DNA of 64,000 bases from Roseisalinus antarcticus (GTDB lineage: Bacteria; Pseudomonadota; Alphaproteobacteria; Rhodobacterales; Rhodobacteraceae), in NCBI RefSeq assembly GCF_900172355.1, contig NZ_FWFZ01000001.1:62001-126000 (forward strand). The letters run 5' to 3'. Shown in pieces: positions 36,437 to 40,585 of the stretch. The position numbers and the translations under genes were made by a program. The notes under the pieces are model-generated. The model was not told the DNA's origin. It was given only the letters and a program-made list of their open reading frames with translations, and searched no databases. The number at the start of each line of letters is the position of its first letter. Position 1 is the first letter of the stretch.

Positions 36437-38179
36437 CTACCGCATCTCGTCCACGGGGATGACGCCAAGGATACCCAATCCTTGCGAAATCACAATCGCC
36501 GCGGCCTTGGGCAGCGCAATTTTGGCTTGTGTTGCAGCGGAATCACCCTCCTGCAGGAAACGCAGGGCGGTCTCTTCGTTGCCCCTGTTCCACAGCGCGT
36601 GCAGTTCCGAGGCCAACTCGTAGAGATAGAACGCCACCCTGTGGGGCTCGTGCAGGCGGGCCGCGATCTCGATCAGGCGGGGCCACTCGGCGATCTTCCT
36701 GGCCAGGGACAGCTCTGCCTCGTGGGTCATCGCGGACAGATCCTGACGCGCCAGCGCCCCGGCATCGGTTGCCAGCCCCATCTCTTCGGCCTTGCGCAGG
36801 ACGGATTGCACCCGCGCATGGGCGTATTGCACGTAGAAGACCGGATTGTCCTTCGACTGCTCGGTCACCTTGTCGAAATCGAAATCCAGCGGCGCGTCGT
36901 TCTTGCGCGTCAGCATGTGGAACCGCAGCACGTCCGCGCCGACCATCTCGACCGCGTCCGCCAGGGTCACGAAGGTCCCGGCCCGCTTGGACATCTTGAA
37001 CGGCTGCCCGTTCCGGTAGAGCTTCACCAGCTGGATCAGCTTGACGTCCAGCGGCACCCTGCCCCCGGACATGGCCGAGACCGCCGCCTTCATCCGCTTG
37101 ACATAGCCGCCGTGATCCGCGCCCAGCACGTCGATCAGCTGGGTAAAGCCGCGCTCCAGCTTGTCGTGGTGATAGGCGATGTCGGGGGCGAAATAAGTCC
37201 AGGCGCCGTCCGATTTCATGATCGGGCGGTCGACATCGTCGCCGTGCTCGGTCGATTTGAACAGCGTCTGCTCGCGCGGCTCCCAATCCTCGGGCAGCTT
37301 GCCCTTGGGCGGCTCCAGCACGCCCTTGTAGATCAGGCCCTTCTCGCGCAGCCCCTCGATGGCCGCCTCGATCCGGCCGGTGCCGTAAAGCGACTTTTCC
37401 GAGAAATAGACATCCATCACCACGCCGACCGCGGCGAGATCGGCCTTGATCTGCTCCAGCATCTTCTCGGTCGCGAAATCGCGGATTGTCTGGAGCCAGA
37501 CCTCCTCGGGCCGGTCGACGAAGGCGTCGCCATGCGCCGCCTTGACCGCCTCGCCCACGTCCTTGAGGTATTCGCCCGGATAGGTGCCGTCGGCAAATTC
37601 GACCTCGCGGCCGAACGCCTCCAGATACCGCAGATAGACCGAGCGGGCGAGCACATCGACCTGCCCCCCGCCGTCGTTGATGTAGTATTCCCGCGTCACG
37701 TCGTAGCCCGCGAAATCGAGCACCGCGGCCAGCGCATCGCCCACCGCCGCGTGCCGGGCATGGGCCACGTGCATCGGTCCGGTGGGGTTGGCCGAGACGA
37801 ACTCCACGTTGATCCGCTCGCCGCCCCCCATGGTCGAGCGGCCGTAGTCGGGCGTGCCGAGGACGGTGGTCACGAGCCCATGCCAGACCGTGTCGGCCAG
37901 CCGCATGTTCAGAAAGCCCGGCCCGGCCACGTCGGCCACCGCGATCCGGTCGTCGGCCAGCAGGCGGGCGGCCAGCGCGTCGGCGATGTCGCGCGGCTTC
38001 AGGCCCGCGGGCTTGGCCAGCACCATCGCGGCATTGGTCGCCATGTCGCCGTGGGCCGGGTCGCGGGGCGGCTCGACGGTCACATTGGCATGGTCGAGCC
38101 CGGCGGGCAGCGTCCCCTCCGCCACCAGCGCGTCAAGGCAGCCCACCACAAGGGCCCGGATATCGGAAAAGAGGTTCAT
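36437..38179 (-). CDS. argS: Arginyl-tRNA synthetase
   Basis: The 580-residue class I enzyme charges tRNA-Arg. It has the N-terminal Add1-type domain, the HIGH-equivalent [20 protein letters not shown], the [20 protein letters not shown] region, [13 protein letters not shown] in the KMSK position, and a DALR anticodon-binding domain ending [15 protein letters not shown]. The length is typical. It is followed after 114 bases by the SPOR gene on the same strand. Confidence 0.96.
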
Positions 38180-38331: not shown

Positions 38332-39456
38332 GTGCGCACGACGATCGGGCTGATGATGCTGAGCGCGCTCGCGATGGGCCTGTCCGCCCTCGCGCTGCGG
38401 CTGGAGATGGCCGCCCCGGGTCAGAGCGCCGCGCTGCTGGCCGGCGGCTGGAACGCCCCAAGCGTCGCCACGCTGCTCTTTGCGGTGCACGGCACCTCGG
38501 GTCTGATGCTGATGGCGCTGGCCGGGGCGGCGATGGGGGGCGTCGCGGCCACCGCAAACGGCCCCGCCGGCTGGACCAGCGCCGCCCTCGGCCTTGCGGC
38601 GGCGGTCGTGCTTGCGATCGTCGGCGTGCTGCAGGCGCTGCCACCCGGTCTGCAGCCCTTCACCATGGTGCCGCTCGACGCGCTGCCGGCCGAGCGGCTG
38701 GCGGCGGCACTGGGCGATCCCGAACGGCTCTCGGCGTTGGGGCGCGGCGAATGGGCCCAGATCGCGGCGCTCACCCCGTTGCTGCTCGGCGCGGGGGCGC
38801 TGGCCGGTGCGCGGCCCGGCCATCGCTGGGGCGGGCGCGTGGTTCAGGTGCTGTCGGTCGCCGCCCTCGTGACGCTGGGGATGCAGACGCCGGCGGTGCC
38901 GATGTCCTCGGCCATCGGCATCCTGGTCCTGCCGTTGCTGGCGCTGATCGCGACGCTGTCGATGCAGCTGGCCGACGACGCGGTGCCCGCGGCCCCCTAC
39001 CTCTGGACCGGGTCGGTGGGCATGGTGCTGGGCCTGATCGTGGCCGCGACCCTTGGCACCAACCCGGGCACCGACCCGGGCACCGCCCCAGGCGGCGGCG
39101 CGGCGGCGGCGGCGACGGTGAACGCCATGGCAGGCACGACCCTGTTGCCGGGGCTGATGCACCTGACGGTCTGGGGCTTTGCGCTTTTCGCGGTCTTCGC
39201 GGCGCTCAACCGGCGCTGGAGCCCGCGCCTGCAGGAGGGCATCCTCTGGGGCCATGCACTTGGCCTCGCGGTGCTCTGTGCGCTGGCCGCCGCGCCGCTC
39301 GTGCGCAACGGTCTGGACGGGATGCCGGTGCGCCGGCTCGATCCTGCCGCGAGCTTCGCCGCCGCGCAGCGGGACGCGGCCGTCTGGGCGCTCCTGCTGC
39401 TCGGCTGGATCCTTGCGGGGGTCATTGTGGCCTGGCGACGACGCTCTCGCCCGTAA
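38332..39456 (+). CDS. Reduced heme-copper oxidase subunit I-like membrane protein
   Basis: This 374-residue protein with about 8 hydrophobic helices shows local resemblance to cytochrome c oxidase subunit I at both ends. The N-terminus has RLEMAAPG (residues 23-30, compare RxELAxPG after COX1 helix I) and WNAPSVATLLFAVHGTSGLM with His53 in the place of the helix II heme ligand. The C-terminus has LMHLTVWGFALFAVFAALNR with His277 at about the second His of the helix X HFH motif, then GLDGMPVRRLDP (compare GMPRRYxDYP). The CuB ligands (HPEVY, HH) and about 170 residues are missing. The GTG at 38332 has AGGAGA upstream at good spacing; TTG at 38329 is possible. Similarity was judged by eye. Confidence 0.55.
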   Translation: MRTTIGLMMLSALAMGLSALALRLEMAAPGQSAALLAGGWNAPSVATLLFAVHGTSGLMLMALAGAAMGGVAATANGPAGWTSAALGLAAAVVLAIVGVLQALPPGLQPFTMVPLDALPAERLAAALGDPERLSALGRGEWAQIAALTPLLLGAGALAGARPGHRWGGRVVQVLSVAALVTLGMQTPAVPMSSAIGILVLPLLALIATLSMQLADDAVPAAPYLWTGSVGMVLGLIVAATLGTNPGTDPGTAPGGGAAAAATVNAMAGTTLLPGLMHLTVWGFALFAVFAALNRRWSPRLQEGILWGHALGLAVLCALAAAPLVRNGLDGMPVRRLDPAASFAAAQRDAAVWALLLLGWILAGVIVAWRRRSRP

Positions 39457-40585
39457 GCCGCTCGTGCGTGAGGATGGCAAAACGGTCCGTCATCCCGGCG
39501 ATGTAATCGGCGACGATCCGGGCCAGCCGCATCTCGTCGCCCGCGGCCTCGTCCACGTCCTTGCGCCATTGCTTGGGCAGCTGCGCGGGGTCCGCCATGA
39601 AGGCGGGGAAAAGATCGTTGATCACCCGCGTCACCTGCTGGCGCATCACCACCACCGAGGGGGCACGGTACATCCGCTCGAACAGGAATTGCCGCAGCAC
39701 CTTGAGATCGGTCCAGAGCCCGGGTGAGAACTGCACCACCATCCGCCCCGCGTGCCGGATATCGGCCGGGCCTTGCGGCGCGAGGTCGGCAAGGTTGGCC
39801 CGGGTCACGCCGATCACGTCCTCGACGAGGATGCCGAAGAACCGCCGCAGCGCCTCGTGCCGGCGGCGGTAGTAGTTGAGGCCCGGATAGGCCCGGTCGA
39901 CCTCGGCGAAACACTCCCTCAGCACGGGCAGTTCCGCCAGCTCGTCGGTCGAGAACAGCTCGGCCCGCAGGCCGTCGTGCAGATCGTGGTGGGAATAGGC
40001 GATGTCGTCGGAGAGGGCCGCGACCTGCGCCTCGGCGCCGGCGTGGGTCGGCAGCTCCAGGTCGTGGCGCATGTCGTATTCGGCCAGCGCCCAGGGGATC
40101 GGCGCGGTCACCGGGCCGTTGTGCTTGGCGATGCCCTCAAGCGTCTCCCAGGTCAGGTTCAGCCCGTCCCATTCGGCATAGTGCCGCTCCAGCGAGGTGA
40201 CGATGCGCAGGGTCTGGGCGTTGTGGTCGAAGCCGCCGTAGGGCGCCATCAGCGCCCCCAGCGCGTCCTCGCCGGTATGGCCGAAGGGCGTGTGCCCGAG
40301 GTCATGGGCCAGCGCCACCGCCTCGGTCAGTTCCTGGTCGAGCCCCAGCGTCCTGGCCATGGTCCGGGCCACCTGCGCCACTTCGATCGAATGGGTCAGG
40401 CGGGTGCGGAAGTAATCGCCCTCATGCTCGATGAACACCTGGGTCTTGTGCTTGAGCCGCCGGAAACTGGAGGCGTGGATGATCCTGTCGCGATCCCGTT
40501 GGAAGGGCGAGCGAAAGGTGCTCTCGGCCTCGGGAAAAAGCCGCCCGCGGCTTTGGTCGGGGTCGCACGCGAAAAGCGCCGCCAT
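39422..40585 (-). CDS. dgt: Deoxyguanosinetriphosphate triphosphohydrolase family protein
   Basis: The 387-residue HD-domain enzyme would hydrolyse dNTPs to nucleosides and triphosphate. HD motifs are visible: RLTHSIEVAQVARTMART, VALAHDLGHTPFGHTGE and a later VAALSDDIAYSHHDLHDG. The N-terminal RSPFQRDRDRIIHASSFRRL and KHKTQVF are typical of the family. Its 3' end overlaps the convergent membrane protein gene by 35 bases. It is divergent from the A-type Fe-S carrier gene, usual in alphaproteobacteria. Confidence 0.93.
   Translation of the reverse strand: MAALFACDPDQSRGRLFPEAESTFRSPFQRDRDRIIHASSFRRLKHKTQVFIEHEGDYFRTRLTHSIEVAQVARTMARTLGLDQELTEAVALAHDLGHTPFGHTGEDALGALMAPYGGFDHNAQTLRIVTSLERHYAEWDGLNLTWETLEGIAKHNGPVTAPIPWALAEYDMRHDLELPTHAGAEAQVAALSDDIAYSHHDLHDGLRAELFSTDELAELPVLRECFAEVDRAYPGLNYYRRRHEALRRFFGILVEDVIGVTRANLADLAPQGPADIRHAGRMVVQFSPGLWTDLKVLRQFLFERMYRAPSVVVMRQQVTRVINDLFPAFMADPAQLPKQWRKDVDEAAGDEMRLARIVADYIAGMTDRFAILTHERLTGESVVARPQ

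Follow-up and report, generated by a model that had tools for sequence, protein, structure and literature searches.

The gene at 38332..39456 (+) of the window (the whole stretch of 64,000 nucleotides that was analysed) encodes a membrane protein of 374 aa that is best read as a catalytically dead descendant of cytochrome oxidase subunit I (COX1), about two helices shorter, with the window protein itself probably a mono-heme bis-His membrane cytochrome. We give this reading a probability of roughly 0.6. On this reading the gene descends from COX1 of the aa3 type and has shed the K-channel Lys, the ligands of CuB and of the high-spin heme, roughly two of the four helices IV-VII, and apparently the D-channel Asp, which is unaligned. 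On established oxidase chemistry, O2 reduction and proton pumping would be impossible, and an oxidase function is not expected with the proton channels gone and neither CuB nor a high-spin heme in place. What the window protein keeps are elements that in COX1 surround the low-spin heme: the Arg of helix I, one His each in helices II and X, and the GMPxRR/D loop. Most likely it would be a free-standing bis-His cytochrome with a single heme predicted near the periplasmic face, passing one electron to or from a partner that may be, for example, a c-type cytochrome. Lineages without one or both ligands would either work without a bis-His heme or have a function that is fading.

To our knowledge, every known member of the heme-copper oxidase superfamily has a binuclear centre, and this centre is named as the characterising feature of these oxidases in the available part of PMC6431628. 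What is new here is, on the sequence evidence, a COX1-derived protein that is not an oxidase. If true, a selected descendant without the binuclear centre would mean that the low-spin heme module is usable by itself, and would offer a small natural protein in which the insertion of a low-spin heme, perhaps heme A, could be studied apart from a catalytic centre. Its relatives would also illustrate ligand loss caught at various stages. No such protein is described in the available portions of the open-access literature on truncated, CuB-less, COX1-like proteins or on Histidinibacterium. The 'COX1-like' protein of PMC4013037, as far as its available text goes, is a split cbb3 subunit.

The window gene and its COX1 landmarks

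The reading frame given in the preliminary description was upheld, with a GTG start at 38332 and a stop at 39456, and this start matches the N termini of homologues (MRATT..., MTRAT...). The GC content at third codon positions was 0.91, with 0.88 for argS and 0.89 for dgt, and the distribution of GC over codon positions resembles that of coding sequence. On its 5' side the gene has argS (36437..38179, -) as a divergent neighbour, while a convergent gene at 39422..40585 (-), whose product we take to be a dNTP triphosphohydrolase (dgt), overlaps its 3' end. Among the ORFs of 33-45 kb, no genes for oxidase subunits II or III or for oxidase assembly were found beside the window gene, nor does an evident electron-transfer partner gene adjoin it.

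Profile alignment bore out, in landmarks and in register, the by-eye alignment with COX1 from which the gene had first been described, and R23-L-E-M-A-A-P-G, His53, His277 and G330-M-P-V-R-R all stand at the positions then given. Arg23 (38398..38400, +) was aligned with the helix I Arg of COX1 (bovine R38, Rhodobacter sphaeroides R52), His53 (38488..38490, +) with the axial ligand that helix II gives to the low-spin heme, and His277 (39160..39162, +) with the second His of HFH, the helix X low-spin axial ligand. GMPVRRLD (residues 330-337; 39319..39342, +) is the counterpart of COX1 GMPRRYxD, the Arg pair of which touches the heme propionates. In the CtaD of the same genome the corresponding residues are R63 (for R23), H103 (H53), H422 (H277, the second His of its HFH), G479 (G330) and D486 (D337). 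The window protein has four His in total, and by our own arithmetic the chance of both named positions being His is near 1e-4. His53 lies 8 residues into the second hydrophobic segment and His277 3 residues into the eighth, and both would point toward the outer side, given an N terminus inside as in COX1. A structure predicted from three sequences (pLDDT 45.7, pTM 0.40) was too poor to place His53 relative to His277.

Heme A would be possible, as the formyl-binding Arg is kept. The heme-b quinol oxidases (bo3) also have a helix I Arg, so the kept Arg is no proof of heme A. Apart from those cited, roles of COX1 residues (Paracoccus numbering) are general background. According to the available part of PMC12901375, the helix I Arg hydrogen-bonds the heme a formyl in the bovine (R38) and R. 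sphaeroides (R52) oxidases, and the heme-b Thermus enzyme has Gln at this position.

At 374 aa, against 567 aa for the CtaD of the same genome, the window protein is 193 aa shorter, and simple hydropathy gave it 10 hydrophobic segments, with 11 for CtaD, a protein of 12 helices. The earlier figure of about 170 missing residues was therefore only roughly right: the difference is 193 aa overall, and the aligned core lacks about two of helices IV-VII. COX1 helices I-III and VIII-XII were aligned in every setting tried, while the match of the two window segments between helices III and VIII to helices among IV-VII varied with the alignment settings. In the window, a low-complexity stretch, TNPGTDPGTAPGGGAAAAA, is found at 39058-39150, in the loop ahead of the helix X counterpart, and exceeds the length seen in the other 13 aligned members.

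Like aa3 COX1 (CtaD; PF00115, TIGR02891), then, the window protein has helices I-III and VIII-XII in the same order, and it shares the Arg at the low-spin heme, the two His and the GMPxRR/D loop. Unlike COX1, it lacks the CuB His pair, the high-spin His and the K-channel Lys, has fewer helices and no aligned D-channel Asp, and oxidase subunit genes are not adjacent. Bis-His membrane b cytochromes (cytochrome b561/CybB) resemble it in being small membrane proteins with a low-spin bis-His heme, as is proposed here, but their folds differ from that of a COX1-derived protein.

Descent from COX1 through intermediate sequences

The window protein alone gave nothing relevant in Pfam, NCBIfam or PDB phmmer searches. 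PF00115 did not match it at E 10, nor did any other Pfam family, and a PF00115 search of the window genome (E up to 10) found two other places only, namely CtaD and a gene that is presumably CcoN-like. The link to COX1 runs through homologues. The first (in genome G003) lies at the same locus and is 39% identical to the window protein; its sequence is identical to that of a protein of Histidinibacterium lentulum B17, and the window genome belongs to the same genus as H. lentulum. A profile of these two members led to further members in the family. One of these (in G166) is identical to a protein of Thalassobium sp. R2A62 and matched the window protein at 2.8e-18 over residues 2-344; the R2A62 homologue in turn matched the CtaD of its own genome at 2.6e-7, and reads IGWTLYPPLST and GMPRRYIDYPDTFAALN, both CtaD-like. 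TIGR02891 (CtaD) matched three of six homologues scanned (P0005, 2.9e-13; P0006, 2.8e-16; P0007, 2.4e-7), and PF00115 matched one of the six above its cut-off (P0006, 6.7e-15).

Profile-profile comparison agreed with these matches. Using hhalign, the family profile matched a COX1 alignment with a probability of 99.7% and an E-value of 1.7e-25 (98.9% and 1.3e-17 with 13 members), while the controls stayed low: the reversed profile gave 0.3%, five column shuffles gave 0.1-0.2% and an antiporter gave 0.6%. The window protein and its congener alone reached 0.7%, which is background, yet in the right register; addition of the R2A62 homologue raised the probability to 92.8%, and three other member subgroups alone gave 70.6, 78.9 and 95.9%. 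In the PDB, the family profile (E 0.001) matched 29 distinct sequences, all named COX1 or COX2-COX1 fusion, the best being Paracoccus COX1 (1.6e-18) in two stretches covering helices I-III and IX-XII. The cbb3-type subunit CcoN belongs to the same superfamily and a CcoN-like protein is encoded in the window genome, but these PDB matches were to COX1 entries only, and none of eight members matched the CcoN of the genome by blastp at E 10.

COX1 ancestry through intermediates is regarded as firm on this profile evidence. A COX1 match in profile searches, on which the preliminary description had let its proposal depend, was obtained at 1.7e-25 with the family profile and was lacking for the window protein alone and for the pair with its congener; the proposed descent thus stood by way of intermediates and not from the window protein by itself. 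In searches of the family, a six-row profile matched 368 of 394 genomes. Twenty of 22 non-member loci found with it (L027-L048) have long frames with HFHY; L027 and L031 are COX1 pieces at contig ends.

Low-spin heme ligands and alternative readings

The member alignment consists of 14 rows, including a weak member, G409 (profile E 1.7e-4; blastp 8e-8 to the window protein), and excluding the contig-end fragment G202, in which the helix X His is kept (by eye). The high-spin heme His and the CuB His-His pair were absent throughout, as had been proposed for the CuB ligands and the high-spin heme His of the window protein. The high-spin heme His (the first of HxH in helix X) was found in none of the 14 members, a His of G559 being one residue further on; the columns of the CuB His-His pair held no His in any of the 14 under one setting, and a second setting left them unaligned. 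Both settings left the helix VI His unaligned. The helix VI Glu/Tyr and the D-channel Asp are unaligned too, and the K-channel Lys was found in no member. Other His are scattered in the vicinity, such as the HH in a loop of G300 and G471, and by eye they share no column.

The surround of the low-spin heme was kept more widely, with the helix I Arg in 11 of the 14 members, the helix II His in 11, the helix X low-spin His in nine and Asp337 in 11. Conservation of both His among orthologues, which the preliminary description had made a test of its proposal, was found in eight members, the window protein and its congener included, and not in the other six. Two pairs among the eight are nearly identical (96% and 99%), which leaves six distinct lineages, 20-39% identical, all with both His, Arg23 and Gly30. 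Fourteen columns are invariant in the first six members, where His53 and His277 are the sole invariant His, and Arg23, Gly30, His53, His277, Gly330 and Asp337 fall in the COX1 stretches round the low-spin heme, the residue roles there being in part general background. The helix X His is absent from G188, G497 and G653 (one genus), the helix II His from G559, and both from G523 and G409. On the family tree, in which several branches are weak or long, the fewest changes required were two for the helix II His and three for the helix X His.

As six of the 14 members are without at least one ligand, heme binding is not family-wide; a heme in the window lineage is a well-grounded prediction from these alignments. 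That some members do not have both His suggests that the role is in part heme-free or is being lost. The pattern could also belong to a heme-independent membrane protein derived from COX1, such as an oxidase assembly or interaction factor, in which the His of the window protein are leftovers. This is the most credible of the alternatives, at perhaps one chance in four: the six members persist with 8-10 hydrophobic segments and open frames, and Pro219, Pro222, Leu224 and Trp306, none of them a heme ligand, do not vary among the first six members. Retention of both His with Arg23 and Gly30 in six such divergent lineages argues against it, as does the loss of Arg23 in all three members without the helix II His. 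By simple hydropathy, 10 of the 14 members, the window protein included, have 10 hydrophobic segments and four have 8-9.

Somewhat less probable is a bis-His heme protein with no role in an electron-transfer chain, acting as a heme or redox sensor or as a heme-A carrier for oxidase assembly. A low-spin pocket kept without the catalytic centre would suit it, as would the lack of an adjoining oxidase subunit or evident redox partner, but no attached domain was recognised within the 374 aa, and the patchy presence suggests that aa3 assembly in most relatives needs no such protein.

That the gene is a decaying COX1 remnant under no selection is improbable. A pseudogene would fit the patchy presence, the ligand losses and the very fast divergence, the window protein and its congener sharing 39% identity where argS and dgt share about 80%. 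However, none of the 11 member frames counted has an internal stop, the window gene has a high GC3, and the gene occupies the same place in 13 member genomes. Moreover, purifying selection acts on one close pair, G160/G657 (one genus; 96% identical), with dN 0.020, dS 0.343 and dN/dS of about 0.06, 72 of the 89 differences being at third codon positions. G300 and G471 differ at only 7 sites, and the other seven pairs are too diverged for a dN/dS judgement, among them the window protein and its congener (dN 0.66; dS 0.93, near saturation). Chance resemblance of an unrelated polytopic membrane protein is hardly credible: the window protein has no direct significant match and reaches only 0.7% with its congener, but the chain of matches is significant, the R2A62 link that speaks against chance came out at 2.8e-18, and the controls lie at background.

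In genus g185 (L169, L170, L025) Tyr was observed at or beside the helix X ligand position instead of His; the position itself is Tyr, or Leu/Thr if shifted by one residue. The most degenerate relative, at 445-1809 of L013 (G409), has neither His and adjoins an antiporter-like gene in a locus without argS.

Distribution and genomic locus

Members were found in 15 genomes of eight genera in one family. The family sample yielded nine carriers among 394 genomes. In the order sample (n=390), 18 genomes were matched (12 with short frames and six with COX1-sized ones), giving six further member genomes, and in the class sample (n=387, E 1e-17) only the window's own genome was recovered; stringent thresholds and five scored candidates per genome may overlook diverged members in these counts. 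The two named relatives, H. lentulum B17 and Thalassobium sp. R2A62, are placed in the Rhodobacterales, Paracoccaceae, by NCBI. Three of five genomes of the window's own genus gave no match, and searches of the genera round G166 and G327 (one genome each) gave no new member. A contig profile scan with the single window protein recovered no relative, and one with a three-row alignment recovered two. Four of 12 profile matches (G037, G107, G293, G329; E 0.002-0.009) were dropped, their loci showing unrelated genes. The single record obtained from PLSDB plasmids with P0005 was an annotated ctaD and not a member.

Within the fetched loci, argS was present for 13 of the 15 member genomes (it was not seen for G202 and G409), and in all 13 the COX1-derived gene lies divergently at the 5' side of argS. 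Member neighbours are argS plus dgt or a Na+/H+ antiporter-like gene, the latter adjoining the COX1 relative in four g157 genomes and in G409. Stretches adjacent to dgt from 80 of 128 dgt-matching genomes (74 of the family and six from other families of the class, one stretch being only 78 bases) yielded no additional member (best E 0.96). Of these 80 stretches, 59 showed argS; in the other 21 its side was out of view. In non-carrier loci argS comes straight after dgt or is separated from it by an antiporter-like or other gene. Such a gene of 600-650 aa, presumably a Na+/H+ antiporter (NhaP-like), was observed between dgt and argS in L086, L089, L092, L094, L096, L116, L120 and others.

In an ArgS tree built from 68 rows, six changes are needed to account for the 13 carriers, and well-supported branches force three of them. 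One old insertion followed by many losses fits this history best, and the gene may have been transferred between genomes.

By eye, a TTGAC...TGNTAAAC pattern recurs some 35 bases ahead of argS and borders on the COX1-derived gene (window copy at about 38214, - strand); it looks like a sigma-70-type argS promoter. A strict version of the pattern was matched in 15 of 70 loci.
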